A stretch of DNA of 64,000 nt, from positions 682,001 to 746,000 of the forward strand of contig NZ_JBDOIO010000004.1 in assembly GCF_039831995.1 (NCBI RefSeq), given 5' to 3'. Made by a program: the position numbers and the translations under genes. Shown here one piece after another: positions 31,189 through 52,020 of this stretch (position 1 is its first letter; each line of letters starts with the position of its first letter). Below the pieces are notes generated by a model. The model had not been told where the DNA came from and searched no databases. It saw only the letters and a program-made list of their open reading frames with translations. Source of the DNA: Paenibacillus pabuli. GTDB lineage: Bacteria; Bacillota; Bacilli; Paenibacillales; Paenibacillaceae.

Positions 31189-34100
31189 TTGTTCAACAAA
31201 AAAGGAAAGAAAATGCTTGCGATGCTTACGCTGATACCGCTGGCAGCGGGAATGGTCATGGGAGCTTTTCCTGCGGCAGTTACCCATGCAGCTGCGGGAG
31301 ATAACACGCCAATCAACAATACGGCAGCAGGTTCATGGCAAACGGGAGATTTGCACGTACATACATTCGAATCGGACGATGCGCAGAATTCGCTGGAGAA
31401 CGTCCTGGATGCGGGTTTGACACAATATGGGCTGGACTGGATCGCGCTAACGGATCATTTGCGATTATCCAAGCGGGACCATAACGGAAACGAAATTCCG
31501 GGTGGGTCCATTCCAATGTCCTTGGGGATGAATGAATATCAAGTACCACAGATCAAGGCACTACAGGAGCAAGGCAAATATGCAGGCAAAACGATCTTCT
31601 CCGGCTTCGAATGGGACATGCCGACACATGAACATGTCGGGGTGGGTATTCTCACAGATGAACCGAATTCGACCGAAGCTCTGGAAGCTGCAAAAGAATT
31701 CGAATATCGGTTTACGAACCGTGATCCAAAACTGTTCGATCCAGCAGACGTAGCGGCTTGGGATCTGGCCGGTGGACGCGCCTACACGACGCACCAGGAT
31801 GCGCTAACCGCAATAGAATGGCTGAAAACCAACTATCCAACAACGAGCTATGCGATGATCAACCATCCTTCGCGTGGCAAAAATAAATATACGATTGCGG
31901 ACTTCCGCGATTTCAACGATCTGGCCCCACAAGTGGTATTCGGTATCGAAGGCATGCTGGGTAACCAGATGGAACCGGATCGCGGCGGGTATAACACAAC
32001 CTACAATGTGTCTAATCCGACGGCAGACGATGGATACAAATACCGTACATATGGCGGTGTAGACTACATGGTTGCCAAAGTGGGCGGACTGTGGGACGCA
32101 CTGCTGGGAGAAGGGCGCCACTTCTGGAACTATGGTAACTCGGATTACCATTTCAAAACGATTGGCACGAATTCCAGTGGTTACTTCCCTGGCGAATATG
32201 CCAAGACCTACTCATGGGTTGAGGGCAGTGGAATGCAGGCCGTGCTGGATGGCCTTCGTTCAGGTAAATCCTTTTCCGTATTCGGCGATCTGATTAACAC
32301 ACTGGATTTCACCGCTTCCGGAGCAGGCGCTCAGGCTGAAATGGGTGAGGACCTGAACGTGACCCAAGGCGACGAAGTGGAGCTGAAGATCCGATTCAAG
32401 AGCCCAACGACCAGTAATAATTATGAAACACCAATCAACAGCGGCACATCTGCTGGCCAGGTGCCTGTGGTCGATCACGTCGACCTGATTGCAGGAGATG
32501 TGACAGGCAAGGCCGAGAAGGGCACAGCCGCATACAACAAGGATACCAACGATTCTACCCGCGTGCTGGCTACCTTCACATCGAACAACTGGACGACAGA
32601 TGCCGAAGGCTACAATGTCATCACGTATAAGATCAAAGTGACAGATCAAGATCAGTATTTCCGCTTGCGCGGCACAAATCTGGAGATGAACGTTCCAGGG
32701 GAGACCGTGAATGGCGAACCGCAGCTGGATCCGAAGAACACAACTTCTGATGCAGAAACGCGTTTTAACCAAATCAATGACAGCAACTATCGGGATCTGT
32801 GGTTCTACTCCAATCCGATCTTCGTGAACGCGACACCTTACAGTGATGTACAGGCGGTAAACGACACACTCCAGGCGATTGATCTGGGAGACCTGAACGC
32901 GGTCACTTCCGACCTTACGCTTCCTGTTGAAGGGAAACATGGAGCGTCGATCACTTGGTCCAGTTCCAATCCGGCACTGATCGATCATCAAGGCAAGCTG
33001 CTGACACAGCCGGATAACAATGAGCGCCTGGAACTGACGGCAACGGTACAACGCGGCAGCGAAACTCAAACGAAAGTTTTCACTGTCATCGTAGAGGGCA
33101 CCAATAATCAGGTTCTGATGTTGAAAAGCAATATGACCACCACGGACGGCCAGCCGTATCATACGGATACATGGACGAATCAGTCCGTAAACGTAAGTGT
33201 AACCAGCGCAGTATATGCACCGGCCGCTTCGGCGACCATTGAGCTGTCCCGTGATGGAGGTCAAACGTATGATCCTTATACAGAGAATACGCCTCTGGAG
33301 ATTGCCGAGCCTGGAGAACATAGTCTGTTATTCCGAGCTACAGACGATCTGAACGGTGAGTATACTTTACCAGTGGTTATCAAAATAGACCGTGAAATTC
33401 CGGTCATTACGCTGCAAGGCAGCAGCCAGATGACACTGAATGTGGGAGAACCCTACAACGAGCCTGGGGCACAGGCATCTGACAATGTGGGCATTAGCGG
33501 TTCCGTGCAGATCGATGGCACAGTGAACACACAAGCGGCGGGTATCTACACCCTTCGTTACAACGTAAAAGATATTGCTGGCAATGCAGCAGAGGAAGTC
33601 ACTCGTACCATTAGAGTACAAGCCAGTTCGAGTAATGGCGGTGGTGGATCAGGTGGCGGCAATGGAGGCAGTTCCGGAGGAAGTACGCCAAGTGTACCGA
33701 CAACGCCTACCGTTCCTACAACACCAACCACTCCGGACACTGGATCGGATTCTTCGACTGAAGTGAAGGTGGAGGTGGAAGCGAATCAGCCTGTTCAAAC
33801 GGGGATTAAAAACGTGGTAGAATTCAACGCTCCGGCTGGAGCTATTGGGGAAAAAGACACTTTGCAGCTGTCTGTGGTCGCTCAGGACAAACTGCAACAT
33901 GCAGCTTCGCTGAAAATACTAGGACAAGCGGTACAGATTAGCCGCACAGGCGGACGGACATTGAACCATCAGGCTGAGTTGAGCCTGAATTATGATCCGG
34001 CAGATCTGACAGACGGAAGCAAGCCAGCAATCTACTATTATAACGAAGCTCGTCAGAGCTGGGTATTTGTCGGCGGGGAAACGAACGTTGCTGGAATTAT

Positions 34101-34710
34101 AACAGCGAATGTGAATCACCTGGGTACCTTCGTTGTATCCAGTTACACACCTGTGAACCTGACGGATCTAAATGGACACTGGGCATCTGATTATGCGGAT
34201 CGTCTGATGGGCATGAACGTGATCCAGGGATATGCCGATGGTACATTCCAACCATTCAAAGAAATCACAAGAGCAGAGTTTGTCACATTGCTTAGCAAAG
34301 CATTGGCTCTCCAAACGGTAGCGTCCACGACTTCATTTGCGGATGAGGAAGCTGTACCTGCATGGGCGAAGTCCGAGATTGCAGCCGCCGTGCAGGCCGG
34401 AATTGTGACAGGCTACGGAGATAATACATTTAAGCCGGATCGTACCATTACCCGTGCCGAGATGGCCGTCATGATGACAAAAGCACTGAAGTTGAGTGAT
34501 GTGCAGGCAGGAACGAATGGCGAGACTGCCAAACCAAGCTTCACCGATGCAGCACAAACGCCGGCTTGGGCACAGGAAGCCATGGATGCAGCTGTACAAG
34601 CCAATATTATTAATGGATATACGGACAATACGGTTCGCGCGGAGAATATGACGACCCGTGCGGAAGCGACAGCCATGATTTACAAATTGCTGCTTGCGAT
34701 GTACGTGTAA
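31189..34710 (+). CDS. S-layer-anchored PHP-type phosphoesterase with Ig-like and SLH domains
   Basis: 1173-residue exported surface protein. Signal peptide at about 1-35 (cleavage near THAAA-G). PHP/CehA-like metal domain at about 52-330: GDLHVHTFESDD, WIALTDHL, GFEWDMPTHEH, MINHPSRG and GNSDYHF give a full set of histidine/aspartate/glutamate ligands. A beta-rich stretch follows (340-550), then an Ig-like domain (557-635), a further domain with SRDGGQTYDPY (640-730), a DUF5011-type Ig domain (735-815), a Gly/Ser then Pro/Thr linker (817-855), a beta domain (860-975), and three SLH domains starting near 990, 1047 and 1118. TTG start after GGAGGG. Probably a cell-wall-bound phosphoesterase or hydrolase; substrate unknown. 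Confidence 0.88.
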   Translation: MFNKKGKKMLAMLTLIPLAAGMVMGAFPAAVTHAAAGDNTPINNTAAGSWQTGDLHVHTFESDDAQNSLENVLDAGLTQYGLDWIALTDHLRLSKRDHNGNEIPGGSIPMSLGMNEYQVPQIKALQEQGKYAGKTIFSGFEWDMPTHEHVGVGILTDEPNSTEALEAAKEFEYRFTNRDPKLFDPADVAAWDLAGGRAYTTHQDALTAIEWLKTNYPTTSYAMINHPSRGKNKYTIADFRDFNDLAPQVVFGIEGMLGNQMEPDRGGYNTTYNVSNPTADDGYKYRTYGGVDYMVAKVGGLWDALLGEGRHFWNYGNSDYHFKTIGTNSSGYFPGEYAKTYSWVEGSGMQAVLDGLRSGKSFSVFGDLINTLDFTASGAGAQAEMGEDLNVTQGDEVELKIRFKSPTTSNNYETPINSGTSAGQVPVVDHVDLIAGDVTGKAEKGTAAYNKDTNDSTRVLATFTSNNWTTDAEGYNVITYKIKVTDQDQYFRLRGTNLEMNVPGETVNGEPQLDPKNTTSDAETRFNQINDSNYRDLWFYSNPIFVNATPYSDVQAVNDTLQAIDLGDLNAVTSDLTLPVEGKHGASITWSSSNPALIDHQGKLLTQPDNNERLELTATVQRGSETQTKVFTVIVEGTNNQVLMLKSNMTTTDGQPYHTDTWTNQSVNVSVTSAVYAPAASATIELSRDGGQTYDPYTENTPLEIAEPGEHSLLFRATDDLNGEYTLPVVIKIDREIPVITLQGSSQMTLNVGEPYNEPGAQASDNVGISGSVQIDGTVNTQAAGIYTLRYNVKDIAGNAAEEVTRTIRVQASSSNGGGGSGGGNGGSSGGSTPSVPTTPTVPTTPTTPDTGSDSSTEVKVEVEANQPVQTGIKNVVEFNAPAGAIGEKDTLQLSVVAQDKLQHAASLKILGQAVQISRTGGRTLNHQAELSLNYDPADLTDGSKPAIYYYNEARQSWVFVGGETNVAGIITANVNHLGTFVVSSYTPVNLTDLNGHWASDYADRLMGMNVIQGYADGTFQPFKEITRAEFVTLLSKALALQTVASTTSFADEEAVPAWAKSEIAAAVQAGIVTGYGDNTFKPDRTITRAEMAVMMTKALKLSDVQAGTNGETAKPSFTDAAQTPAWAQEAMDAAVQANIINGYTDNTVRAENMTTRAEATAMIYKLLLAMYV

Positions 34711-38140: not shown

Positions 38141-38213
38141 TCTATTATTAAAACACTTTTAAAAACATTCAATGAATGGTGTTGAATCAACGAAAGGAGG
38201 CGTAAACCTCGAA

Positions 38214-39245
38214 ATGCAGCCTACATCACACAACACCCAGCAGGTGAAGCGAATTAATGTGGAACTGGTGAAGAACACACTAAGATCAACGGGCGTTGGA
38301 ACAAAGTCTTCCATTGCGAACCTGACGAAACTCAGTGTTGCTACCTGCGGCACGATCCTGAACGAGCTGCTCCAGACGGGAGAGATTATCGATCTGGGCC
38401 CGGATGAATCAAGCGGGGGGAGACCTGCGAGCAGATATCAATTCAATGCGGACTATGCCAGCGTGCTATGCGTGCTTATTCGAACAGAGGGCGGTGTTCA
38501 CTCGATCACGTATCTTCAGGCAAATCTGAATGGCGAGATAAAGGATGAGCAGACGCTTGTTCTGGATGAGATTACCGTAACTACGGTCGAGGATCTGATA
38601 GCAGCCTTGATTGAAAAGTATAACAATGTGCAGGCGATTGGGATCGGTATCCCGGGGGTGGCGCATAACGGAATGATTGGCATTTGTGATGTGCCGGGTC
38701 TGGCAGGTCAGCCACTGGGACCGAAGCTCAAGGAGCGATTCGATGACGTCGAAGTCATCATTGATAACGACATGAATCTGACGGTGTACGGACTGTACAA
38801 CGAGCAGCATTTTGAGGAAGAGAAGAACTTTGCGGTAGTCACTTTTCCGAAAAATCATTATCCCGGGGCAGGTTTCATCATTGATGGTCACCCTTTGAAA
38901 GGGAACACGCATTTTAGCGGCGAGGTATCTTACCTGCCTTTTGGGGTGACATCCGAAGAACAGCTTCGCCTGCTGCAAACTCCGGAGGGACTGCATCAGC
39001 TTGTGATCAAAACGCTGGTATCCATCATTGTCATTATTAACCCGGCAGCGATCGTCATCACAGGGGACACGATGGACTCTGCCATGCAAAATGATCTGAT
39101 CCAAGGTTGCCTGCAAACCATACCACAGGAGCACATGCCGCAAGTCATGATTCAAAATGATACACGGCGTGAATATGTTACCGGCTTGGTTGCTGTCACG
39201 TTGGAGAGCTTAACCTACCGTATCCAGTTAATCGAGAAAAAGTGA
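38214..39245 (+). CDS. ROK family transcriptional regulator
   Basis: 343 residues. N-terminal winged helix (about 10-65: VKRINVELVKNTL, TKSSIANLTKLSVATCGTILNELLQTGEI) fused to a ROK sugar-kinase-like domain with GIGIPGVAHNG (about 147), IDNDMNLTVYG (about 193) and GEVSYLPFG (about 250). The cysteine-rich zinc motif that normally follows is absent, so the protein is a degenerate repressor rather than a kinase. AAAGGAGG lies 13 bases before ATG 38214. It precedes an MFS transporter it probably controls. Confidence 0.88.
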   Translation: MQPTSHNTQQVKRINVELVKNTLRSTGVGTKSSIANLTKLSVATCGTILNELLQTGEIIDLGPDESSGGRPASRYQFNADYASVLCVLIRTEGGVHSITYLQANLNGEIKDEQTLVLDEITVTTVEDLIAALIEKYNNVQAIGIGIPGVAHNGMIGICDVPGLAGQPLGPKLKERFDDVEVIIDNDMNLTVYGLYNEQHFEEEKNFAVVTFPKNHYPGAGFIIDGHPLKGNTHFSGEVSYLPFGVTSEEQLRLLQTPEGLHQLVIKTLVSIIVIINPAAIVITGDTMDSAMQNDLIQGCLQTIPQEHMPQVMIQNDTRREYVTGLVAVTLESLTYRIQLIEKK

Positions 39246-39357
39246 TAACGACAGAAGTAAAGCTAGTCAATTTACACGTAGGAGCAATCGAAAGATCGTA
39301 CTGCAATCGTAGTTAGTAGTGTAATATTCCTTTCTGAAATCATTGGAGGTACTCATT

Positions 39358-40602
39358 TTGGATCAGCAAGCAAGTAAGAAGAAGTTCAATAAGATGTATG
39401 CCATGCAGCTGGCGACGATCTTTATTGGTTTTATCGTGTTTGGCATATCGGAAAATATTAAAGGGCCGGCGATTCCGCGCATTCAATTTGACTTCAATCT
39501 GGACGAGAAGCAGCTCGGAACGTTGTTATCCCTGAACGCGCTGGGGTATCTGATCGCATGTTCGTTCACGGCTATCCTTGTCCGCAAATGGGGCATCAAG
39601 GCGGTTAGCATTATCTCCTTTGCCTCCATGATTCTCTCGGGTGTGTTCATTTATTTATCCCATACATATCCGCTCTTTGCTTCATCGTATTTCTTCATGT
39701 ACATCGGTAACGGCATGCTGGAGATTGCGCTCGCGATTCTGGGTGCTCGCATCTTTGTGAAAAATACAGGCATGATGATGAACCTGTCCCATTTCTTCTA
39801 TGGTCTGAGTTCAACCGTAGCTCCGCTTCTGGCAACGGGTGTCATGTCACTGACGGTGTTTGGGCATGAACTGGACTGGCGCGGTATGTATCTGGCCATG
39901 TTGTCCCTCTGCCTACTGCCTATTATTGCGGCAATGCTTAGTACGTTCCCGGGAGATGATCTTCCGCATGAAGACCGGGTTTCCTTGAAAATGCTGACAC
40001 GTGATCCAGCCATCTGGATGATGGTGCTGATTCTTTCTTTTGGCGTGGTATCCGAACTGGCCGTAGGCGGCTGGCTTGTAAACTTCCTGGAAAAGGCGTA
40101 TACCTGGGACACCGTGAAAGCTTCGGGGATGCTGTCTGCATTTTTCCTCAGCTTCTCGCTCGGGCGTCTGCTGCTCGGTCCGCTTACGGATCGGATTGGT
40201 TTTGTACTTTCATTGATTGTTTTCTCGGCTTTCTCAGCTATCTGCACGTTCGCGGCCATCGCGGGCGGTGAGGGGCTGGCGTTCCTGTTTGCCGTGTCTG
40301 GTGCAGGTATTGCGATGATCTATCCAACTGTGATGGCATTTATTGCGAAAAGGTATCCTAACGGAAGCGACACCGCCATTACGTTTGCGGTTACGCTGAT
40401 GGGGGTCGGCAGCGTCATTGGTAACTATGCGATTGGCTGGGTTATTGAAGGCGTGAAGAACGCGTATGGTGCAGCTACTCCATTGGGGCTGCTTCGCGGT
40501 CTGCAGGCGGGTTATGGGTTTATCGGTTTATGTGCTGTGATCTGTGCGGCGTCGGGCGTAGTGTTGTTTGTGTATCTGAAACGGAAGCAGGAACTGATTT
40601 AG
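39358..40602 (+). CDS. MFS transporter (FucP-like sugar permease group)
   Basis: 414 residues, 12 membrane segments. The opening GFIVFGISENIKGPAIPRIQFDFNL, with its long first loop, and GRLLLGPLTDRIGF near residue 265 fit the FHS/FucP-type MFS group. TTG 39358 is chosen because GGAGG lies just upstream, inside the longer frame from 39343. It follows the ROK regulator by 112 bases in the same direction, as in many sugar-uptake units. A terminator follows. Confidence 0.88.
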   Translation: MDQQASKKKFNKMYAMQLATIFIGFIVFGISENIKGPAIPRIQFDFNLDEKQLGTLLSLNALGYLIACSFTAILVRKWGIKAVSIISFASMILSGVFIYLSHTYPLFASSYFFMYIGNGMLEIALAILGARIFVKNTGMMMNLSHFFYGLSSTVAPLLATGVMSLTVFGHELDWRGMYLAMLSLCLLPIIAAMLSTFPGDDLPHEDRVSLKMLTRDPAIWMMVLILSFGVVSELAVGGWLVNFLEKAYTWDTVKASGMLSAFFLSFSLGRLLLGPLTDRIGFVLSLIVFSAFSAICTFAAIAGGEGLAFLFAVSGAGIAMIYPTVMAFIAKRYPNGSDTAITFAVTLMGVGSVIGNYAIGWVIEGVKNAYGAATPLGLLRGLQAGYGFIGLCAVICAASGVVLFVYLKRKQELI

Positions 40603-40641
40603 TTATCATTCAATTTAATTTTATCTTGTGAGATGGCATAG

Positions 40642-40678
40642 GAATCCTCGTTGGAGTTAAACGGGGGTTCTTTTATTT
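40642..40678 (+). terminator. Terminator after the MFS gene
   Basis: GAATCCTCGTT (40642-40652) pairs with AACGGGGGTTC (40660-40670) with two wobbles, followed by a T run. Confidence 0.75.
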
Positions 40679-40700
40679 ATTCTGATAGATTTTTAATCCT

Positions 40701-40736
40701 CTGAAAATGTTTCCCATTTATAGTATGATCATACTA
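40701..40736 (+). promoter_or_regulatory. Promoter with perfect 16-bp palindromic operator
   Basis: CTGAAA (40701-40706), 17-base spacer, TATGAT (40724-40729). The perfect palindrome TAGTATGATCATACTA (40721-40736) covers the -10 element, so a dimeric repressor would block this promoter. It drives the GNAT-fusion/amidohydrolase pair. The half-site spacing resembles GntR-type sites, but no GntR gene is adjacent. Confidence 0.6.
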
Positions 40737-40849
40737 TCGATAGCTTCTGCAAACACGTACTCTATCATCTCTGTGGCTATCGGACAAGGTCGGGTCATCA
40801 CGAACGAGTACGAAGACCACCCTATACATAAAGCAAAGGGGATAGAGAC

Positions 40850-43800
40850 ATGACAGTAACCTCGAATCTAGAACAGATCCGCATTATCGAATACGATCAC
40901 GCCTACGCTGCCGCATTGGCAGATATGTGGAACCGCAGTAATGAAAGCTGGGGAGGAGGGACGAACCAGAGAACGGAGGATACCGTGCGCCGGGAGATGG
41001 AGAGTTCGTCCAATCTGCATGTGTTTCTTGCGGTTCATGAGCATGAAGTGGTTGGCTTTTGCAGCTTTGCCCACTACCGTTTCGATGAAGGCGCGCTGTA
41101 TGTACCGTTATTGAACGTTCGCCCCGATTATCATGGCCATAAGGTCGGCCGCAATCTGATCCTGAACGCTGTTCGCAAAACCGTAGAAGCGGGATGGCCC
41201 CGCCTGGATCTGTTCACATGGGCAGGTAACACCAAGGCCGTGCCGATGTACAAGAAATGCGGTTTTTTCTGGGAGAAAAAAGAGGACAATGTACACCTGA
41301 TGAACTTCATCCCGACCGTCTTGCAGACCGAAGCCCTCGCCCCATACTTTGAGGTGTTGGATTGGTACGCAGACAGTACGCGTGAACTCGTCATTGAGCC
41401 CGATGGCCGGCGTGAGCGTGGTTTTGATTTCTTCGATTACACTTGGAAAAAGGGAGACATCTCCTTGCGCGCCGAGTTCGAGAAGTCCGGTCGCGGCTTG
41501 ACCGCGCTTGAAACGCCAGATTACGAAATCGCCACAGAGATGGACGACCATGATCTGGTGTTTGGCTCCACATACAAGGTTCGCTACCGAATCAAGAACT
41601 GCTCAGCATCTGAGCTGACGTTTGAAATCAAGGGACAGGATAACAAAAACATTCGTTTTGCTCTGGACACTGCACGAGCAGTAGCTCCGGGAGAAGTGAT
41701 CATTGTGGAAGGCGAGTTCGATCTTGATCCGGTCACAGAGGAACAGAACCTGATGAAAACCCATCCTGTTGTCGCCAGCACATGGCTGATTGGCGGCAGA
41801 AAAGCGGAGTTTCGTATAGGCGTTGCACCGAAATTTCCGGCCAAGCTGAACATGGTGCTGCCCATGAAGGAACTGTACACAGGTGTCCCGGCCGAGCTGT
41901 TTATCAACGTGGAAAACAATTATGGTGCCGAAGCCGAGTTTGCTTTTGACCTACCAGAGGATGAATTCCTGGAATGGACAGAACCTTCGATACGCTTCAC
42001 CGTGCCTGCGAAAGGCAAAGCTTCGATACCTGTATCCTTTACTTTGCGCTCGTATGGACTCTATTCGAGGAAGGTGGAGGTGACGGCCGTCCCGGCGGGT
42101 CACCAGCCAGTAGTTTTCACAAGCAAACTCTCCGTCCTGATGAAGGGGACCCAAGGCCGTTATGGCGGGGAGAACGGGGATCAGTGGGTGGCTGTCAATG
42201 GCGCATTCTCCCTTCATATGAGCAGACAAGATCATACGATGTGGATTGAATATCCGGGCTCTCACCACACGTTCTGGTGGACTTACCCGAAGCTGGGTAA
42301 GCCGTTTGCGGAGGAGTTCTCCAAGAAACAAGCCAAAGAAGTGAATATCTATCCCGAAGGGGACAGTCAGGTTCTCGAAGCTCTCTATGAATCGGAGGAA
42401 TTCCCTGGTTTGCAGGTTAAATCATTGACCAAGCTGTCGGCAAACGGAATTACGGAATTTTACTATGAAATAAGCAATACACGCCGTACTGAGCTGGAAG
42501 AGAATATGTTTCTGATGACCAACTTCGGATTCTACGGCAATCGGCTGATTCTGCCGTACCAAGGTCGGTATGTGGACATGGGCGATGTGTATTCCAGCGA
42601 TCCGGGTCATTGGGACAGCGCCCAAATCACAGAGAACTGGCTCTTCTGCAAGGAAGCGTACGGTGCATGCGGTATCTATTGGGACCCTTCCCTGAAGCTG
42701 CTTCGTCCGGAATACACATTGGGGCTGGAGCATGAGCTTGGCCAGATGCCGGCAGGGGCCGTTGTGCAGACCAAGAAGACTGTATTTGCGTTGAACACCT
42801 TCGTGAAGTGGCAGGATTTCCGTTCTTTTGCCCGTAAAGAGCGCGATCTGGTTGTACCTGTGCTGGATGACCATCTTGAACTGGTTCTAGGCGGTGGCAA
42901 TCCGTTTGAAGGAGGGAAGCTGCAGGCAGAATGGATGGAGCGAAAAATGATACCACTAGCCGGAAATCTGGAGCTGTATGCGCAGAACGGTGGTGCATCG
43001 GAGGTTAAAGCTGCAGATATGGAATTAAACCGGGAGCAGGACCTTCGCTCTGTACAGTTGGAGTTCTCCCCTGAGGAAATCGTGGCAAAGGAAAATGGTG
43101 GAAATGGCTGGAAGATTCGAGCCGTATATCGCGGAGAGGATCGGATTCAGGAACGGACCGCTCTCTGGTTTCCGAAGACGCAATCCGCCGTTGACTGTGT
43201 GATTGAAGAAGGGCAGGCAGGTCCGGTGTACACGGTAAGCAATGGAGTTCTCTCGATCGCAGCAGCACCCGGGATCGGGAGCGTCGTGCATTCCTTGAAG
43301 TATCAGGGTGAGGAATGGCTGGACAGTTCGTATCCGGAAGCTGCTCCGCGTTCCTGGTGGAATCCATGGTACGGCGGGCTTGGCGTGGGAATCCCAGGTA
43401 TGAATGGTTTTAGCCGTCAGCAAGAGCATAGAAGTACAGAATGGACGGAGCATAAGGATAATCACGGAAACGTCTGGAAAGGGATTTGCATGACAACCCG
43501 AATCGAGAAGCAGGAAGCGAATCGGGGAATCACGGTACAACAGCGTTACCTTATGCTGCCTGGCGTGCCTGTTCTCTGTTCGCTGCATTCAGTGACGAAC
43601 GAAACCGGGTTGACGCTGGCGGATTACTCGCTTACGGAAGATCATTTCTTCAAGCCGTCACCAGTCTTTGCCGAAGGCTGGCTGGAACATCCCGAGCAAG
43701 GACGGTTCTCCTTGGGAAAGGTGGATGCGGGTCTCCAATTGAAGGGACTCTTGCGAGTAGGTGCAGTTACGCGTAAAAACATGCTTCATGCCGTAGATGC

Positions 43801-44020
43801 CTATCCAAATCATAATCCGTCGGTATATGTGAACAACCAGGTACTCAGCCACAATGTTCATCAACATCTGCCGGTATCCAATGGGGAGACTGTCTGGATG
43901 AAACCAACTTATCTGGTCTTAGGGCAGATTCCTCTGAATGCGGAAGATGTCCGCAGCCTGTTGAAGCTATCCTTTGGCAACACGACTGTTGAAAAGGAGA
44001 ACACTCATGCCGATCATTGA
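40850..44020 (+). CDS. GNAT acetyltransferase fused to a ~900-residue beta-sandwich region
   Basis: 1056 residues, no signal peptide. Residues about 10-155 are a complete GNAT domain (LLNVRPDYHGHKVGRNLIL near 86, AVPMYKKCGFFW near 130). From 160 to 430 come beta-rich Ig/NEW3-like segments (VFGSTYKVRYRIKNCSA, KASIPVSFTLRSYGLY). From about 440 to 680 and again 790 to 1040, long beta-supersandwich regions rich in aromatic and acidic residues (HHTFWWTYPKLGKP, WWNPWYGGLGVGIPG) resemble galactose-mutarotase-like folds of carbohydrate enzymes; that fold call is inference. The stop overlaps the next gene's start by 14 bases. Function unknown; a carbohydrate- or glycoconjugate-modifying enzyme is the best guess. 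Confidence 0.8.
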   Translation: MTVTSNLEQIRIIEYDHAYAAALADMWNRSNESWGGGTNQRTEDTVRREMESSSNLHVFLAVHEHEVVGFCSFAHYRFDEGALYVPLLNVRPDYHGHKVGRNLILNAVRKTVEAGWPRLDLFTWAGNTKAVPMYKKCGFFWEKKEDNVHLMNFIPTVLQTEALAPYFEVLDWYADSTRELVIEPDGRRERGFDFFDYTWKKGDISLRAEFEKSGRGLTALETPDYEIATEMDDHDLVFGSTYKVRYRIKNCSASELTFEIKGQDNKNIRFALDTARAVAPGEVIIVEGEFDLDPVTEEQNLMKTHPVVASTWLIGGRKAEFRIGVAPKFPAKLNMVLPMKELYTGVPAELFINVENNYGAEAEFAFDLPEDEFLEWTEPSIRFTVPAKGKASIPVSFTLRSYGLYSRKVEVTAVPAGHQPVVFTSKLSVLMKGTQGRYGGENGDQWVAVNGAFSLHMSRQDHTMWIEYPGSHHTFWWTYPKLGKPFAEEFSKKQAKEVNIYPEGDSQVLEALYESEEFPGLQVKSLTKLSANGITEFYYEISNTRRTELEENMFLMTNFGFYGNRLILPYQGRYVDMGDVYSSDPGHWDSAQITENWLFCKEAYGACGIYWDPSLKLLRPEYTLGLEHELGQMPAGAVVQTKKTVFALNTFVKWQDFRSFARKERDLVVPVLDDHLELVLGGGNPFEGGKLQAEWMERKMIPLAGNLELYAQNGGASEVKAADMELNREQDLRSVQLEFSPEEIVAKENGGNGWKIRAVYRGEDRIQERTALWFPKTQSAVDCVIEEGQAGPVYTVSNGVLSIAAAPGIGSVVHSLKYQGEEWLDSSYPEAAPRSWWNPWYGGLGVGIPGMNGFSRQQEHRSTEWTEHKDNHGNVWKGICMTTRIEKQEANRGITVQQRYLMLPGVPVLCSLHSVTNETGLTLADYSLTEDHFFKPSPVFAEGWLEHPEQGRFSLGKVDAGLQLKGLLRVGAVTRKNMLHAVDAYPNHNPSVYVNNQVLSHNVHQHLPVSNGETVWMKPTYLVLGQIPLNAEDVRSLLKLSFGNTTVEKENTHADH

Positions 44021-44885
44021 TATTCACATTCATCTGTCTGACATTGACAGCTTCCATCGAACGGCGATCGATCTGTCCCAAGTCGATTACTCTGCCGCCG
44101 GCCTCAAGACGGAGTTTGACAAGAACGACGTCATACTCGGTATTGGCATGGGAGTGACCGAGCAGACGAAGGGAGCCTTTCCGGACTCCAGTTCACCGAA
44201 CCCGATGGGACTTGATCTGGAAGAAACGGTTCCGCCCTTTCTGATGGAATGTGTCGGCGTCAATCCGAACCGGCTTGGCGGTGAACACGCGCAGGAAGAA
44301 TTGGACCGCATTGAAGCAAGGCTGCAAGCTCCCGAGGTAGCGGGTATCAAGCTGTACGCGGGGTACTATCATTACTATGTCCATGACAAGATATATACTC
44401 CGATCTATGAGCTGGCAGCCAAGTACAACATGCCCGTCGTGATTCATACGGGAGATACGTACTCGATGAATGGATTGCTAAAGTATGCCCATCCGCTGAC
44501 TGTGGATGAGCTAGCATATCAACAGCGCGGGGTGAACTTCATGATCTGTCATTTGGGTGATCCCTGGGTGATGGATGCCGCCGAAGTGGTGGCGAAGAAT
44601 CCTAACGTATATGCTGATTTGTCGGGACTCGTGGTTGGGGATCGTCCCCATTTTGAACGATTCATGAATGAACCGCTGTTCATGGACCATTTCCGCCGGG
44701 CGCTGGTGTATTCCGATCACTACGAGAAAATGCTGTTCGGAACCGACTGGCCGCTTGCACCGATTGATCTGTATGCCGAATTCGTCCGCCGACTCGTGCC
44801 CGAACAGCATCATGAGAAGGTATTCTACGAGAATGCATTCCGTTTATTTCCGCGCATTGAGCAGCGAATCGCACAGCTGGGTTAA
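44007..44885 (+). CDS. TIM-barrel amidohydrolase (amidohydrolase-2 type)
   Basis: 292 residues. The N-terminal IDIHIHL metal motif at residues 3-9, GIKLYAGYYHYYVHD near 113, VVIHTGD near 148, NFMICHLGDPW near 178 and KMLFGTDWPLAP near 247 give the metal-binding pattern of the amidohydrolase-2 (ACMSD/LigW-like) family. AAAAGGAGA lies six bases before ATG 44007, inside the preceding gene, and the 14-base overlap implies translational coupling with the GNAT fusion. It could be a hydrolase, decarboxylase or lactonase acting on the same substrate. Confidence 0.88.
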   Translation: MPIIDIHIHLSDIDSFHRTAIDLSQVDYSAAGLKTEFDKNDVILGIGMGVTEQTKGAFPDSSSPNPMGLDLEETVPPFLMECVGVNPNRLGGEHAQEELDRIEARLQAPEVAGIKLYAGYYHYYVHDKIYTPIYELAAKYNMPVVIHTGDTYSMNGLLKYAHPLTVDELAYQQRGVNFMICHLGDPWVMDAAEVVAKNPNVYADLSGLVVGDRPHFERFMNEPLFMDHFRRALVYSDHYEKMLFGTDWPLAPIDLYAEFVRRLVPEQHHEKVFYENAFRLFPRIEQRIAQLG

Positions 44886-44989
44886 AGAGAAAGGTTCAAG
44901 AAATAAATATATTTATAAACTGATACAATACCCTCGATACCACGTTTGTGTTCGTTGTAGTCGTTGACCGTGATTGTCTATCATAGAAG

Positions 44990-45024
44990 AAGCTCTTGCC
45001 ACATGTGTGGCAGGAGCTTTTTTT
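44990..45024 (+). terminator. Terminator after the GNAT-fusion operon
   Basis: AAGCTC and TGCCACA (44990-45003) pair with TGTGGCA and GAGCTT, with one bulged position, then a seven-T run. Confidence 0.9.
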
Positions 45025-45116
45025 ACCACAAATAGCAATTTCGTAACGAAGGGTTATTGAGTTTTGCGGATAAGAGGCTCTTTCTAGTAAAACAACCTAC
45101 TGCCACACACAAAAGA

Positions 45117-45140
45117 GAGCCTGACGACTAGGTCAGGCTC
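45117..45140 (-). terminator. Terminator overlapping the end of the membrane-protein gene
   Basis: GAGCCTGAC (45117-45125) pairs with GTCAGGCTC (45132-45140). On the minus strand it is followed by TCTCTTTTG. The last codons of the 45128 gene form part of the stem. Confidence 0.7.
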
Positions 45141-45562
45141 TTCTTGGCAACATACTTTGTCGTTGTAACATCTGAATCCTGTCGTTTCAGGAATTTTTTG
45201 CTTGGGCGATGCAGTAAAACAACTAATAAAGCATAAAGTTGAATAAGTGCGGCGACTAGCCCCTCATTCAATACACCCATAAATAAAGCGATACTCAGAA
45301 AAGTAACAGTGGATCTGAACTTTCGTTGGGTGATGGAAACGACAGCAAGCAAACTGGGAATGACCCAAAACATTATTCTGGCGGTTAGTTCGGCAGAGAC
45401 GTCACCAAGATCGCTTCCTGTAATCGGAGGATCAAGATAGGCTTCTGGATTTTGACTGAAAATAGAAACAAATACGATAAAGGTGATAATGTAGAACACT
45501 ATTTTGAAACTTAACAAGATGCGAACACCATTCAGCAATGCGGGTAACTTTGGTTTTAACAT
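45128..45562 (-). CDS. Small membrane protein, paralogue of the upstream gene
   Basis: 144 residues with four hydrophobic segments (about 12-34, 60-82, 88-107, 108-126). It shares PxLLNxxRxLL at the start, R-(R/K)-(F/Y)-x-x-T-(V/I)-TF in the middle and LLHxPSKxxLK at the end with the gene at 45594, from which it is separated by 31 bases. ATG 45562 is chosen by alignment to that paralogue. No recognised family. Confidence 0.7.
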   Translation of the reverse strand: MLKPKLPALLNGVRILLSFKIVFYIITFIVFVSIFSQNPEAYLDPPITGSDLGDVSAELTARIMFWVIPSLLAVVSITQRKFRSTVTFLSIALFMGVLNEGLVAALIQLYALLVVLLHRPSKKFLKRQDSDVTTTKYVAKKSLT

Positions 45563-45593
45563 TCTATTCACAGACTCCATTCCGCTACTAAAT

Positions 45594-46010
45594 CTATACT
45601 TGCAAATCCCGCTTGGAATACTGCCGCACATGGGCCTCCTGCTTGAGATACAACTTGCTCGGTTTATGGAGCAGGAGCACAAGCAGCATAAACAAATGCA
45701 GAACCACTAGAAAATTCTGAAGCAATCCGGCAGTGAACAAAAAGGTAAGAATCATGAAGGTTATTGTCCATTTATATCTTCTTTTTGCAATGAATATCAT
45801 AGTCAGAATCGGAGGTCCCAGGATCAGCAGGGTACGAATTCCCGCATTCGTGAAGTACGCGACCTGATCGGATAGCGGAAATGCGGCATAATCTGCACTA
45901 TGCAGCAGGATATCGTAGATTAAAAAGCCCATGGCAATCCCGATGTAGATTGTCTGGACCCCAAGCAGCGCGCGTATGACGTTTAATAATGTGGGCATTT
46001 TTGTATTCAA
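45594..46010 (-). CDS. Small membrane protein, first of a duplicated pair
   Basis: 138 residues from TTG 46010 (GGGAGAG ten bases upstream), four hydrophobic segments. Aligns end to end with the downstream 45128 gene through TLLNVIRALLG, RRYKWTITFM and LLHKPSKLYLK, showing a tandem duplication with strong divergence. The basic C-terminus (RQYSKRDLQV) is probably cytoplasmic. Function unknown. Confidence 0.72.
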   Translation of the reverse strand: MNTKMPTLLNVIRALLGVQTIYIGIAMGFLIYDILLHSADYAAFPLSDQVAYFTNAGIRTLLILGPPILTMIFIAKRRYKWTITFMILTFLFTAGLLQNFLVVLHLFMLLVLLLHKPSKLYLKQEAHVRQYSKRDLQV

Positions 46011-46333
46011 TGTTGTTTCTCTCCCTAATGAGTATGTAGTTCTTTAATTATACGTAAGGGATGTCATATTTTGTATTAAACCAAAGTCTATAATTATTAA
46101 TGGTTTGTCGCCCCCTTTGGCCTAGAACATTTCGGAAAGGGCGGCATAGGTACTGCATGAATGTGAAAAGCAGCGCGAAAACATCTGTTAGTCCAGGGTG
46201 TATACGCGTGCCTCCGCTCAAAAACATCCTCCTCAAATGCTTATACCACTGAAGAATTAATAGCTAGATACCGATATAAAGAAAATACATAAAGGTTGGA
46301 CTACATCATGATGAAAATGGAAGGTGAAATGGT
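46011..46333. other. 323-base divergent intergenic region
   Basis: Lies between the membrane-protein pair (leftward) and the chemoreceptor (rightward). I see no gene I can support; a minus-strand frame at 46048-46236 lacks a ribosome binding site. A partial inverted repeat (CCCTTT near 46113 with AAAGGG near 46135) might be a hairpin. Promoters of both units must lie here but no consensus pair stands out. Confidence 0.5.
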
Positions 46334-48394
46334 TTGAAGTTATTCGGTAAGGTGAAGGGAAGCATGGCGAACATGTCCTTTAGGGTCAGATTGCCGCTGA
46401 TGATCAGTGTGTTGGTAAGTATCGTGCTGGTGGCGACGGCAATCCTATGTTATAGAGTGGCAGAAAGCATCACCCTGGACAAAAGCAAAGACGAAATTAA
46501 GGCGACTTCCGATCGGATCGGTGCTGGACTGTTTACCTCGCTGACCTTGGAGGAGCAGTCTACATTTTTGATTACTACACATCGTACATTTGAGGATTTG
46601 CTCGAAATCCGGAATTCGGGAGAACAGAGCGATGATGAATTTTTCTCGGAAAACAGTGAACTGATCGACAAAGCCAATGGCATATTGGCAGACAGTCTCG
46701 CAGGAATGGAAGGCAACAGCAATATTATTTTGCTGGACAAGGAAGGCGCTATTGTTGCAGCGAATGATCCGTCAGCCCTCAAGGGTGAACGTGCAGATCG
46801 TGATTATTTTAGGCAGGCCATTCAAGGGCGGAATGTCATCAGTGACGGGATTATCTCCAAAACGTTAGGTACGCTGGGAAATGCCTTTGCCATGCCGATT
46901 TACAATGATGACAATCAAGTGGAAGGTGTGCTGGTGTCTACTGCAACCACCTCGTTCTTCGTCAACCAGCTGCAGAATATCGAAATCAATGAAAAGGGTA
47001 GTGTCATTATTCTGGACCGTGTAGGTACGGTCATGTTTCATTCGTCAGATGAGACACTTGCTGGCCAGAAGATGGAGTCCGGGGAGTATCAGACATTGAT
47101 TGATCTGCCTCCAAGCGAGCAGCTGCAGCAAGGGGAACTCAGTTCGGAAGAAAAAGTGGTATTCTACTCCAAAATTCCGCGCTCCGATTGGACGGTAATC
47201 GTGGAGGATTCGTACGAGGACGTGCGAAAGCCACTCGTATCCATGGCGAACAAAATGTATATCGTGCTGTTCAGTGCCATTGCGGTGTCCATCGCAGCTG
47301 GAATTCTGATCTCGCTCATGGTAACGAGACCGATTACGAGATTGAACGGATTGTTCAGACGGCTCGCAGGCGGAGATCTGACCGTTCAGGCAGAAGGCAA
47401 ATACAGCGGAGAGTTCAAAGACCTGGCAGACAGCTTCAACACGATGGCGGGTGCCAACAGACAGTTGATCTCCAGCATGAACAGCTCCATTGGTACGTTG
47501 AACACCAGTACAACCGAGCTGGATCAATCCACACAGCAGACTTCCGCATCCATTGCGGATACAACGACGACGGCAATGGAAATCTCGCGGGCCATGGAAT
47601 CACAGGCAAGCGATACGGAATCCATCGTGGATAAATTCATGAACGTGGGAAGCAAGATTGCCAGTGTGAGCGAGAAATCGCAGGCGGTGAAACGCAAAGC
47701 GGATGAGATTACCGACGCATTTGAAAACAATCATGAGGTCGTCGATAAGCTCATTGCCGTGAACAATCAGAACGAGATTGAAGTGGGTAATATTTCCAAA
47801 ATTACTGTACAGCTCGCCGAGAGTTCCTCAGGTATTCATCAGATCACAGGTACCATTGCCGAGATTGCGAATCAGACGAAGCTGCTTGCACTTAATGCTT
47901 CCATTGAGGCGGCCAGAGCAGGCGATCAGGGACGCGGCTTCGCCGTCGTTGCCTCGGAGATCCGTAAACTGGCAGAGCAGACGACCGCCCAATCAGAGGA
48001 TATCAAGCGGATTGTCATGCAGACGATTGAACATGTCGAGCAGAATAACCGCAGTGTACAAGCCATTGAGGCTATTGCCGAACAGCATAAGAGCAGTGTT
48101 GGACAAACCAAGGAAACCTTTACTTTTGTTACGCAAAATATGCATGAGATCATGGACCAGGTACAGGCCATTGCTTCCGAGATCGAATCCATTGAGCGTG
48201 ACAAGGATGATGTTCTTGGGGCCGCACAGAACTTGTCTGCTTCCGGTGAGGAAGTATCGGCATCGGTTGAAGAAGTGACCGCAACAATGCAGGAGCAAGC
48301 GGGGATGACAGAGCATTTGGCAGAGATGGTGCAGACCATTGATGCGTTGACCAAACGGCTTGCAGAGGAAGCGTCGAAGTTTAAAACGAATTAA
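46334..48394 (+). CDS. Methyl-accepting chemotaxis protein
   Basis: 686-residue transmembrane chemoreceptor. First membrane segment at about 19-40, extracellular dCache-like sensor domain at about 41-305 ([28 protein letters not shown], typical Cache strand), second segment at about 307-330, HAMP domain to about 385, then a cytoplasmic coiled coil with methylation helices and the hairpin tip [21 protein letters not shown] near 515. TTG start eight bases after AAGGTG. It signals to CheA/CheW; the ligand is unknown but Cache domains often bind amino or organic acids. A terminator follows. Confidence 0.95.
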
Positions 48395-48462: not shown

Positions 48463-49620
48463 TTATAGCGATGATGAGATACTGGTCTTGGCAAAACGGG
48501 ATAGGGCAAACCGTCCAATATCCTGATCCGTATGCCCTGTCTGGACCAAATCGGACAGGATCTGGCCAATCGCGCTAGCAAATTTGAAGCCATGACCCGA
48601 AAATCCGCCTGCCAGCCAAACATGCTCATGCAGCTGATGACGGTCGATAATAAAGTCCTCGTCAGGCGTCATTTCGTATTTGCATACACTGCCACGTTTC
48701 AAATGGCCTGCCGCCAGCGGCATTCGAAGCTCAAGCAGCCTCCGCAGTTCACCCTCGTCTGTTTCTTCCGTTCCGAACGGTGTCTGTGGTTCTCCAGGCG
48801 TCCATGTTGGTCCTGTATCATGACGGCCAATCTTCACTCCGGCCCCGCCGATGCTGGGGAATCCGTAATAGATCCCTTCCCGTTCAGATATCGTGAAACC
48901 AGGGAAATGTTCTTCGCCGAACAATGTTTCCGGTGCATCGAACCATCCTACGGTTTTACGAACGGCCCGGATCGGAAGATCCACAAACGGTTTCAATGTC
49001 TGAAACCAAGCACCCGTGCTGAGTATGAGCTTACTCGCGTGATATGTATCTCCGGCAGCGGTTTTTATGGATACGGATTGAGGTCCGCATTCGACATGTT
49101 CCACAGGGGTATGCGTCAGCAGGGTGGCACCTGCTTGTTCTGCGGCTTGCCGATATGCCTGAATGCAGCGTTCACTGAACAGATAACCAGCATCCGGTTC
49201 GTACATGCCTTCATAATGGTCAGGTATTGTAATCCCTGACCAACGCTTCATCACTTCATTTGCACGCAGCATTTCATACCGGACTCCGGCGTCATCTGCA
49301 TGAGTCAACCGGTCGCGAAACGAATGGAACTCTGGATCAACCAGGTTGATAACCCCTGAACGAACAAGCAGGTTGTTGCCGGTGATATCCTCCAGCTCCT
49401 GCCATAAATTCTGGGCCAGAAGCGCCATCGCGATGTAATCAGGTCCCCCGCTGTACACATGGCGAATTAATCTGGACTCCCCATGATGGCTCCCTTCAGT
49501 ATGCGGGGGATCAAAAGCATCAATCATCAGAGTTTTTAGCCCGCTTCGTGCCAGATAATAACCTGCACTCATCCCCATGGAGCCTGCTCCAACGATAATG
49601 ACGTCATAGAAATGTGTAAT
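48463..49620 (-). CDS. solA: Monomeric sarcosine / N-methyl-L-tryptophan oxidase, ATT start
   Basis: 385-residue flavoenzyme that oxidatively demethylates N-methyl amino acids to the amino acid, formaldehyde and H2O2. FAD-binding VIIVGAGSMGMSAGYYLA begins at residue 7, SHHGESRLIRHVYS is the MSOX/MTOX substrate-side loop near 45, and CKYEMTPDEDFIID near 320 carries the cysteine that binds FAD covalently. AGGAGG (49633-49628) sits seven bases before ATT 49620; no ATG, GTG, TTG or CTG lies between that site and the GAGSMG motif, so ATT initiation is the only reading that keeps the FAD domain whole. Whether the substrate is sarcosine or N-methyltryptophan is undecided. Confidence 0.85.
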   Translation of the reverse strand: MTHFYDVIIVGAGSMGMSAGYYLARSGLKTLMIDAFDPPHTEGSHHGESRLIRHVYSGGPDYIAMALLAQNLWQELEDITGNNLLVRSGVINLVDPEFHSFRDRLTHADDAGVRYEMLRANEVMKRWSGITIPDHYEGMYEPDAGYLFSERCIQAYRQAAEQAGATLLTHTPVEHVECGPQSVSIKTAAGDTYHASKLILSTGAWFQTLKPFVDLPIRAVRKTVGWFDAPETLFGEEHFPGFTISEREGIYYGFPSIGGAGVKIGRHDTGPTWTPGEPQTPFGTEETDEGELRRLLELRMPLAAGHLKRGSVCKYEMTPDEDFIIDRHQLHEHVWLAGGFSGHGFKFASAIGQILSDLVQTGHTDQDIGRFALSRFAKTSISSSL

Positions 49621-49775
49621 AAGAGCTCCTCCTCTCGCGGATCTGTTAGGCTTGGGTAGCTTACATGATAATGTAGACTTGAAAGCGAGTTTGGTCAAGA
49701 GGCAGCTTATATAGAATGACATAGTGATAACCGAAAATTCGGAGTGTAAACACGGCTTTCCGTACCTTTCATAAC

Positions 49776-49812
49776 AAAAGCCGGTCACTCCACCCTGGAG
49801 TACCGGCTTTTG
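49776..49812. terminator. Bidirectional hairpin before the HesB-like gene's 3' end
   Basis: AAAAGCCGGT (49776-49785) pairs with ACCGGCTTTT (49802-49811), with inner ACTCCA/TGGAGT. It lies 29 bases beyond the HesB-like stop and can end transcripts on either strand. Confidence 0.8.
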
Positions 49813-49840
49813 CATATGTGATTAAGCGTCGTAAAATAGA

Positions 49841-50715: not shown

Positions 50716-50736
50716 CCCGAGGTTGATGCATCAGAG

Positions 50737-50774
50737 TGAAACCCATTTCATCGCCCATCCTTATCTGGTATGAT
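50737..50774 (+). promoter_or_regulatory. LacI-gene promoter with overlapping operator
   Basis: Operator TGAAACCCATTTCA (50737-50750) overlaps a weak -35 (TTTCAT, 50746-50751); a 17-base spacer leads to TATGAT (50769-50774). The operator matches those in front of the transport operon, implying autoregulation. Confidence 0.65.
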
Positions 50775-50810
50775 AAGCAGGAAAATTATAGACAAAGGAA
50801 GGTTCCACTT

Positions 50811-51839
50811 ATGACACCGATCACCATTTATGACATCGCCAAAGAAGCGAACGTATCTGTAGCGACCGTCTCCCGGGTGCTCAACGACACGGCACCCGTG
50901 CGGGCAAGCACGAGAGAGAAGATCATGTCGATTATCGAAAAGCACCAGTTCCAGCCCAATGCGCAGGCACGCAGCCTGATCAAGAAAGAGACGGGCACGA
51001 TCGCCATCATCCTTCCCGACATTACCAATCCGTTCTTCCCAGAAGTATTCTGGGGTGCCGAGAATGAGGCACGCGGCTTGGGATACACGTTCTTTCTGTG
51101 CAATACGGCGGGCGATTACAACCGGGAATCCGAGTATCTGTCCATTTTGCGGGAAAAACGGGTGGACGGCATTATTTTCCTCGGTGGAAGAATCAACATG
51201 CAGCATTGTCCGGACGACATGGCACAGGAATTGATCGACATGGGCAAACGCATGCCGATTGTATTGGTCAATGGCAATATTCCGAAAGGAGGATTCCACC
51301 GGGTTTACACGGATGAAGCGGCAGGGGCCGTACTCGCTGCGGAACATTTGGTGGAGCATGGACATCGGGACATCGCTTTTGTAGGCGGACTGAGAGAACT
51401 GTCCACAACGATGGTCAAGGTCAAGGCCGTGCAGAAAAAACTGCGGGAGCATGGACTCGAAATACCGAAAGACCGCCAGCTGCTCGGCAGTTTCTCCATC
51501 GATGACGGCAAACGGGAGATGTCCAAGCTGCTGGAGCAGGACAATCCACCGACAGGAGTCATCTGTGTGAATGATTATACCGCCATTGGTGCGATCAAGG
51601 CAACGATTGAACATGGCCTGTCGATTCCGCAGGATATTTCCATCGTGGGATTCGACGATACGCCGCTGGCCAGTGCGGTTATTCCGGAACTGACGACCGT
51701 GTCACAGAATACGTATCAGCTTGGCAAGCTGGCGGTGGATAAGCTGCATGAGCTGATTAATCAGGGACAGGCGAAGAAGCAGACCGTGCTGCAGCCGGAG
51801 CTGATCATCCGTCAGAGCACAGGACCTGCCAAGCGATAA
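50811..51839 (+). CDS. LacI family transcriptional regulator
   Basis: 342 residues. N-terminal LacI helix-turn-helix (TIYDIAKEANVSVATVSRVLND, residues 4-25) with the hinge helix, then a periplasmic-binding-protein-like effector domain (GTIAIILPDITNPFF near 60, IVGFDDTPLAS near 275). AAAGGAAGG precedes ATG 50811. It lies directly in front of an ABC transporter/glycosidase operon and carries the same operator upstream, so it is very probably the repressor or activator of that operon, responding to a galactose-containing oligosaccharide. Confidence 0.95.
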   Translation: MTPITIYDIAKEANVSVATVSRVLNDTAPVRASTREKIMSIIEKHQFQPNAQARSLIKKETGTIAIILPDITNPFFPEVFWGAENEARGLGYTFFLCNTAGDYNRESEYLSILREKRVDGIIFLGGRINMQHCPDDMAQELIDMGKRMPIVLVNGNIPKGGFHRVYTDEAAGAVLAAEHLVEHGHRDIAFVGGLRELSTTMVKVKAVQKKLREHGLEIPKDRQLLGSFSIDDGKREMSKLLEQDNPPTGVICVNDYTAIGAIKATIEHGLSIPQDISIVGFDDTPLASAVIPELTTVSQNTYQLGKLAVDKLHELINQGQAKKQTVLQPELIIRQSTGPAKR

Positions 51840-51907: not shown

Positions 51908-51981
51908 TGAAACCCCTTTCATGATGTGGAACGGGTTTTAGTTTTAAGCTTTATGAAACCCATTTCATGAAATGGGTTTCA
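51908..51981. promoter_or_regulatory. Triple LacI-type operator array
   Basis: TGAAACCCCTTTCA (51908-51921), TGAAACCCATTTCA (51954-51967) and its exact inverse TGAAATGGGTTTCA (51968-51981). The last two abut to make a perfect 28-base palindrome. They lie just downstream of the promoter start point, consistent with repression by blocking or looping, and match the copy at 50737. Confidence 0.8.
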
Positions 51982-52020
51982 TCGTGGTCATCCATTCATT
52001 ATTTCGAGGGGGCGTACCGT

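Follow-up and report, generated by a model that had tools for sequence, protein, structure and literature searches.

The FUS-AHY locus and its products

Two overlapping genes on the plus strand, which we call FUS and AHY, lie within a 64,000-nucleotide stretch of the Paenibacillus pabuli genome (contig NZ_JBDOIO010000004.1, positions 682,001 to 746,000), hereafter the window, in whose own numbering all coordinates are given. FUS (40850..44020), delimited by its open frame, Pfam matches, homologues and an AlphaFold2 model, encodes a 1056-amino acid fusion of a GNAT domain with supersandwich domains. AHY (44007..44885; 292 amino acids from the ATG at 44007) encodes an Amidohydro_2 metal hydrolase, as assigned by PF04909 and invariant residues. 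As claimed in an earlier reading of the DNA letters alone (the sequence-only reading), the two frames overlap by 14 bases. The AHY start lies within the last FUS codons, matches the start of aligned homologues and is preceded by a ribosome-binding site inside FUS, recognised from the sequence (AAAAGGAG; 43992..43999, plus strand). The dedicated terminator postulated in the same reading is also present: at 44985..45024 on the plus strand, a Rho-independent terminator follows the pair, with an 18-pair hairpin, a U-run in the 3' arm and an energy of -30.1 kcal/mol that none of 200 shuffles reached (z -5.45). The FUS match is single in the 6.9-Mb source genome, and the sole annotated FUS record seen carries the label "GNAT family N-acetyltransferase" only.

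Residues 1-152 of FUS (40850..41305, plus strand) form the GNAT domain according to both Pfam and fold. Three GNAT models exceed the Pfam cut-off, the best being PF00583 at residues 27-139 (E 5e-13; 49.8 bits versus a cut-off of 20.7), which is also matched by all 39 FUS members (E 0.05), and the GNAT fold is present in the FUS model. In the remaining approximately 900 residues, no other kind of domain exceeds the Pfam cut-off, in keeping with the original description of a complete GNAT domain followed by about 900 unassigned residues; the sequence also has no hydrophobic N-terminal segment, in line with the claimed lack of a signal peptide. Conservation was followed in 39 FUS sequences and in a deep set of 16 diverged FUS with 16-45% identity to the window protein. 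W34, D120, N127, Y134 and K135 of the GNAT domain are invariant in the deep set and W27 in the 39 closer sequences; W27 and W34 belong to the first GNAT helix and the loop after it, a loop modelled at low confidence.

The rest of FUS was analysed in the AlphaFold2 model and a second model, with secondary structure from DSSP and fold matches from structure alignment and Foldseek. Five plus-strand segments were delineated. A beta segment (residues 153-336; 41306..41857), defined by DSSP of the two models and by conservation, keeps P155, W172, D185 and Y197 across the deep set; the structure alignments were taken up by matches to the other domains. It is followed by an Ig-like beta sandwich (residues 340-431; 41867..42142), defined by DSSP and by weak Pfam Ig-type matches in a few members, and by supersandwich 1 (residues 436-668; 42155..42853). 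A second beta sandwich (residues 676-775; 42875..43174), which takes the position of LacZ domain 4 in the structure alignment, then precedes supersandwich 2 (residues 777-1041; 43178..43972). Both supersandwiches have a predicted galactose-mutarotase-like fold, with galactose mutarotases and glycosidase supersandwiches as their best domain-level matches; thus, structure prediction and fold search place both in a fold of carbohydrate enzymes. For the whole FUS model, the lowest Foldseek E-values go to Ig-rich proteins. Compared profile to profile, the two Ig-supersandwich units match with an E-value of 0.004 but a probability of 8%; the fold of supersandwich 1 came from the second model. The beta region had also been called aromatic-rich, a description that is weak: at 11.0%, the W+Y+F content of residues 160-1056 is within the range of window reading frames of at least 250 amino acids (4.7-16.6%), and W, at 2.6%, is near the upper end.

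Residues 436-668 and 777-1041 share their fold with galactose mutarotase and with other supersandwich proteins related to it (3mwx, 4bze, 5cd6). FUS differs from galactose mutarotase in that supersandwich 2 has no conserved His and in that two copies, each after an Ig-like sandwich, are fused to a GNAT domain. The C-terminal domains of LacZ (GH2) and GH38 enzymes may resemble residues 674-1041 in the order of sandwich and supersandwich, with LacZ aligning over both only at a root-mean-square deviation of 8 A (FUS 674-1025 to LacZ 625-1023). Unlike these enzymes, FUS has no catalytic barrel: beyond residue 160, the model has just four helices of at least four residues by DSSP (580-583, 654-662, 853-857 and 1031-1038), all among strands, and no catalytic TIM barrel. 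No glycoside hydrolase family, GH3 included, is among the 17 families listed for the 39 FUS members (E 0.05).

The GNAT domain is the most conserved part of FUS. Its mean top-residue frequency in the 39 sequences is 0.72 versus 0.36-0.63 elsewhere, and most invariant columns of the deep set fall within it; the supersandwiches retain G483, F490, N798, P829, G842, G843 and G878 in that set. Among close species, nonsynonymous codon change relative to two loci (L073 and L099) is least in GNAT (5% and 15%) and AHY (6% and 7%) and greater in the scaffold (11-24% and 26-43%), and relative to the closest relative (L071) it is again lowest in GNAT (2% versus 4.5-10%).

AHY matches PF04909 with an E-value of 1.6e-26 (94.2 bits versus a cut-off of 26.4), and 22 of 22 AHY members match Amidohydro_2 at E 0.001. 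H7, H9, K115, H147, H182 and D247 are invariant in 22 sequences and in a set of 18 with 37-77% identity to AHY, of which 13 come from loci where no FUS is adjacent. The metal-ligand pattern of Amidohydro_2 proteins is HxH, H, H, D, and it is complete in AHY (H7, H9, H147, H182 and D247); an HxH-K-H-H-D pattern of this kind would suggest a binuclear site with a bridging lysine. The nearest solved structure by sequence, 3irs (BB4693, uncharacterised), belongs to the same Amidohydro_2 sequence family but is distant (E 6e-7). The neighbours of AHY relatives without FUS are inconsistent; some of the most distant relatives adjoin QueD-/QueE-like and nucleoside-phosphorylase-like genes (named from their N-termini), from which we conclude nothing.

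Distribution of FUS and its pairing with AHY

FUS was searched for in samples of 295 genomes of the family, 348 of the class and 348 of the phylum, and in a scan of named genomes. In the family sample, 186 of 295 genomes have a match at E <=0.001; by our count of the rows listed, 123 have FUS at 500 bits or more, and the other 63 matches are weak. At E 1e-30, 50 of 348 class-sample genomes, from 11 of 134 genera, have FUS, and 22 of these genomes lie outside the family. A match of any kind is found in 42 of the 348 phylum-sample genomes; by our reading, 22 of these matches reach past the GNAT domain and 16 of the 22 are outside both family and class. Thus, the fusion is present in more than 160 sampled Bacillota genomes (123 of the family, 22 other Bacilli and 16 outside Bacilli). 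Because the loci of these last 16 genomes, one of them with two copies in tandem, have FUS frames at full fusion length (1012-1147 amino acids), the fusion itself is old. The named-genome scan was followed for the best 80 of 438 matching stretches; both of its search patterns lie within GNAT, so that not all 438 need be fusions. These 80 come from Paenibacillus, Brevibacillus, Fictibacillus, Rossellomorea, Alkalihalobacillus and bins titled Paenibacillaceae, Bacillota or Clostridia, all of them Bacillota taxa, and the closest are from Paenibacillus illinoisensis (94%) and Paenibacillus sp. ACRRY (93%). With the window protein alone as query, no FUS relative was found on viral contigs.

Several loci depart from a single intact gene. 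Interrupted FUS copies occur (L053, L105 and L134), and in one genome (G281) the interrupted copy is paired while a further, intact copy is unpaired. In P. xylanexedens-like genomes (L265 6732-7943; also L079 and L082), a FUS fragment covering residues ~183-263 lies upstream of the intact gene and adjoins a frame that reads as a MazF-like toxin, a trace of partial duplication and insertion. At one locus of Bacillota outside Bacilli (L191 7465-14033), two FUS genes of 1027 and 1022 amino acids stand in tandem with AHY after the second copy.

The sequence-only reading had named beforehand, as evidence against itself, that the two genes almost never co-occur in other genomes. AHY immediately follows FUS on the same strand in 38 of 40 Paenibacillaceae loci (21 overlapping, 17 at 0-50 nucleotides), which were chosen for diversity from 39 genomes and share species with the 80 named loci, and it is directly downstream in 76 of those 80 (40 overlapping, 34 within 50 nucleotides, one at 51-300 and one at 388). 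The pair is therefore a conserved two-gene unit, and the reading survives its own test. AHY is missing from this position at L048 and L052 of the Paenibacillaceae set and at L106, L114, L146 and L134 of the named loci; L134 is the 5.9-kb contig with one of the interrupted copies. In seven further genomes picked from the 22 other Bacilli, five loci are paired and two are not (L262 and L263), and a Cytobacillus plasmid copy (L226) is unpaired. Since three loci from bins titled Bacillota or Clostridia (L124, L139 and L149) have the pair, it is not confined to Bacilli.

The coupling originally proposed is thus real but not universal: in the phylum sample, 15 of the 16 FUS genomes outside Bacilli have no adjacent AHY and one has. 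Of the 348 phylum-sample genomes, 28 have AHY homologues (E 1e-20). Outside the family, they are found in four of 16 genomes with FUS (G349, G387, G441 and G601) versus 18 of 326 without (Fisher p 0.014), two of the four being of one genus and so not independent; AHY is adjacent to FUS in G601 only. A quick tree built from 63 FUS proteins, 44 paired and 19 unpaired, requires 10 changes of the pairing label versus a shuffled mean of 16.5, with none of 500 shuffles as low, although near-copies inflate such label-shuffle tests; pairing is thus clustered yet repeatedly gained or lost. FUS does not depend on AHY, nor AHY on FUS. Other neighbours were seen at diverged loci: at L192 (7723-12986), a diverged FUS is preceded by a DUF1028 gene and abutted at its end by an Amidohydro_3 gene, i.e. 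a different amidohydrolase is associated, and two distant FUS loci without adjacent AHY (L052/L266 and L182) have a MutS2-like frame, named from its N-terminus, upstream on the same strand.

Control region and neighbouring genes

Upstream of FUS, a consensus scan and conservation in close relatives point to a promoter candidate at 40701..40729 on the plus strand (-35 CTGAAA, 17-nucleotide spacer, -10 TATGAT). Because the scan alone gives six promoter-like sites in 39500-46500 versus a shuffled mean of 8.5, and so is not above chance, the argument for this candidate is its block conservation in close relatives. The -10 had been placed inside a perfect 16-bp palindrome; the palindrome, an operator candidate from its exact match and its relatives, is real but is 18 bp long (ATAGTATGATCATACTAT; 40720..40737). 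It is perfect in the window and in two of 79 named loci examined. Of 81 upstream regions, the window included, 21 contain an exact ATAGT-N8-ACTAT with a centre that varies, versus 0.1 expected in mononucleotide shuffles; this form is present in 14 of the 20 rows listed and absent from three loci whose FUS identity is 69-74%. The perfect operator form is thus limited to the nearest species. In the whole genome, there is no second site with up to two mismatches, and an operator shared by a regulon was rejected: there is one other site, with three mismatches, giving two forward sites in total versus three in the backward control. A weak cre-like (CcpA-type) sequence, scored by mismatches to a consensus, overlaps the -35 at 40702..40715 on the plus strand, with three mismatches in the window and two in several relatives. 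Sites with up to two mismatches occur on the plus strand in 25 of 81 upstream regions versus ~10 in mononucleotide shuffles, a weak hint at carbon control.

In the window, a ROK gene (38172-39245) and an MFS gene (39343-40602) are found near FUS. Both remain near it in part of the nearest clade, and MFS also in L265. Assigning a pathway from neighbouring genes was rejected, as ROK relatives occur in three of 40 loci, MFS relatives in four of 40 and flanks vary by clade. In eight loci of related Paenibacillus, a flavin adenine dinucleotide (FAD) oxidoreductase gene lies downstream that is not an orthologue of the FAD oxidoreductase gene in the window (48463-49815). Elsewhere in the window, a LacI-type regulator gene (50736-51839) is closely followed by a perfect 30-bp palindrome (51953-51982), a possible operator or attenuator that extends over the initial codons of a solute-binding-protein gene (51967-53292), and a 1173-amino acid surface protein (31189-34710) has S-layer homology and Ig-like domains with a weak PHP-domain match.

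Proposed function and alternatives

We suggest, with a probability of roughly 0.4, that FUS is a cytosolic acetyl-CoA-dependent N-acetyltransferase on a sugar-binding scaffold and that AHY acts on the same pathway. In this model, the N-terminal GNAT domain would be the main, probably the only, catalytic site of FUS, as suggested by conservation of sequence and fold. The two tandem Ig-plus-supersandwich units, predicted to resemble LacZ domains 4 and 5, would act as the scaffold and would hold a carbohydrate-containing acceptor near the GNAT site with W27 and W34. In most examined Bacilli, FUS would be translationally coupled to AHY, a metal-dependent amidohydrolase with the TIM-barrel-type fold expected from its family. 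Given the coupling, AHY would most likely hydrolyse either what FUS has acetylated or another compound of that pathway. Outside Bacilli, FUS would work without an adjacent AHY in most genomes of the phylum sample. The recurrence in many Paenibacillus relatives together with the sugar-enzyme-like scaffold suggests that the pair probably modifies a sugar-containing molecule. We infer that the scaffold binds this sugar, that GNAT acetylates it and that AHY acts on the same compound.

In the open-licence literature, we found no description of a GNAT-supersandwich fusion, of the FUS-AHY pair or of a complex split between two such genes. The nearest published fusion of GNAT with a carbohydrate enzyme that we found is RmNag of Rhizomucor miehei, reported as a GH3 beta-N-acetylglucosaminidase to which a tandem GNAT glucosamine N-acetyltransferase is joined at the C-terminal end; its GNAT region acetylates glucosamine (PMC4680927). 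RmNag and FUS both have GNAT and carbohydrate-enzyme domains in one polypeptide. However, RmNag has tandem C-terminal GNAT domains and an active GH3 glycosidase, while FUS has a single N-terminal GNAT domain, mutarotase-like supersandwiches without a recognised active site and no GH3 domain.

The Ig/supersandwich region could instead bind protein and no sugar, with FUS acetylating proteins or peptides. Among PDB sequences, the GNAT domain matches N-alpha-acetyltransferase 30 (E 5e-5) and PaiA (E 0.001), and the whole-model preference for Ig-rich proteins points the same way; the mutarotase and glycosidase matches at the level of single domains do not, and we consider this reading unlikely.

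A supersandwich with catalytic activity of its own, whether like a lyase or glycosidase or as an altered mutarotase, would make FUS a two-activity enzyme, which we regard as quite unlikely. The sequence-only reading had left open a carbohydrate-binding or a catalytic scaffold; binding fits the sugar-enzyme folds, while catalysis is less supported. In the galactose mutarotase of L. lactis, His170 and His96 have a catalytic role. No mutarotase-type conserved catalytic histidine was found in the supersandwiches of the 39 FUS sequences: in supersandwich 2 (777-1041) no His column reaches 50%, and in residues 437-663 the only one that does is H628 (67%). The 39 sequences do conserve E595, E822, E859 and D870 as well as a W-NPW-GG motif, in a fold shared with mutarotases. 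In the four most diverged FUS, where the alignment is unsure, E859 and D870 are gone from all four, E822 from three and E595 from one, while the GNAT residues persist. What speaks against GNAT as the only active site is that, by our reading of the alignment, E or D occupies the E595 position in 15 of the 16 deep-set members; because this acid is so widely kept, supersandwich 1 could still be catalytic.

A self-protection role, in which an amino-sugar antibiotic or toxic amine is imported, inactivated by GNAT and then broken down by AHY, is in our view improbable. Among PDB sequences, the GNAT domain does match a putative streptothricin acetyltransferase (E 8e-6), and an aminoglycoside acetyltransferase is a weak match (E 0.14); by fold, it also matches phosphinothricin acetyltransferase, and the patchy distribution and varied flanks would suit such a role. 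Antibiotic-inactivating acetyltransferases, however, are normally single-domain; moreover, no PADLOC defence family was matched at E 0.01, only a single one of 72,556 plasmid records carries FUS, and the flanks examined showed no conserved partner of the resistance or transport kind. Finally, FUS and AHY could form a split carbohydrate-modifying complex, with the AHY barrel seated on the LacZ-like double supersandwich, where GNAT would acetylate and AHY would hydrolyse a sugar-bound substrate on one platform. Such a complex would make sense of a FUS without a barrel, its overlapping partner from a barrel family and the supersandwich glycosidases among the structure matches, in which a TIM barrel stands beside the supersandwich, but FUS and AHY are found apart in several genomes and we hold it very doubtful.

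Under the model of an N-acetyltransferase on a sugar-binding scaffold, FUS would be a GNAT whose choice of substrate depends on a scaffold about six times its own size. If FUS acetylates a sugar-linked amine, this would suggest that common soil bacteria handle glycans or amino sugars inside the cell by a route not described so far.
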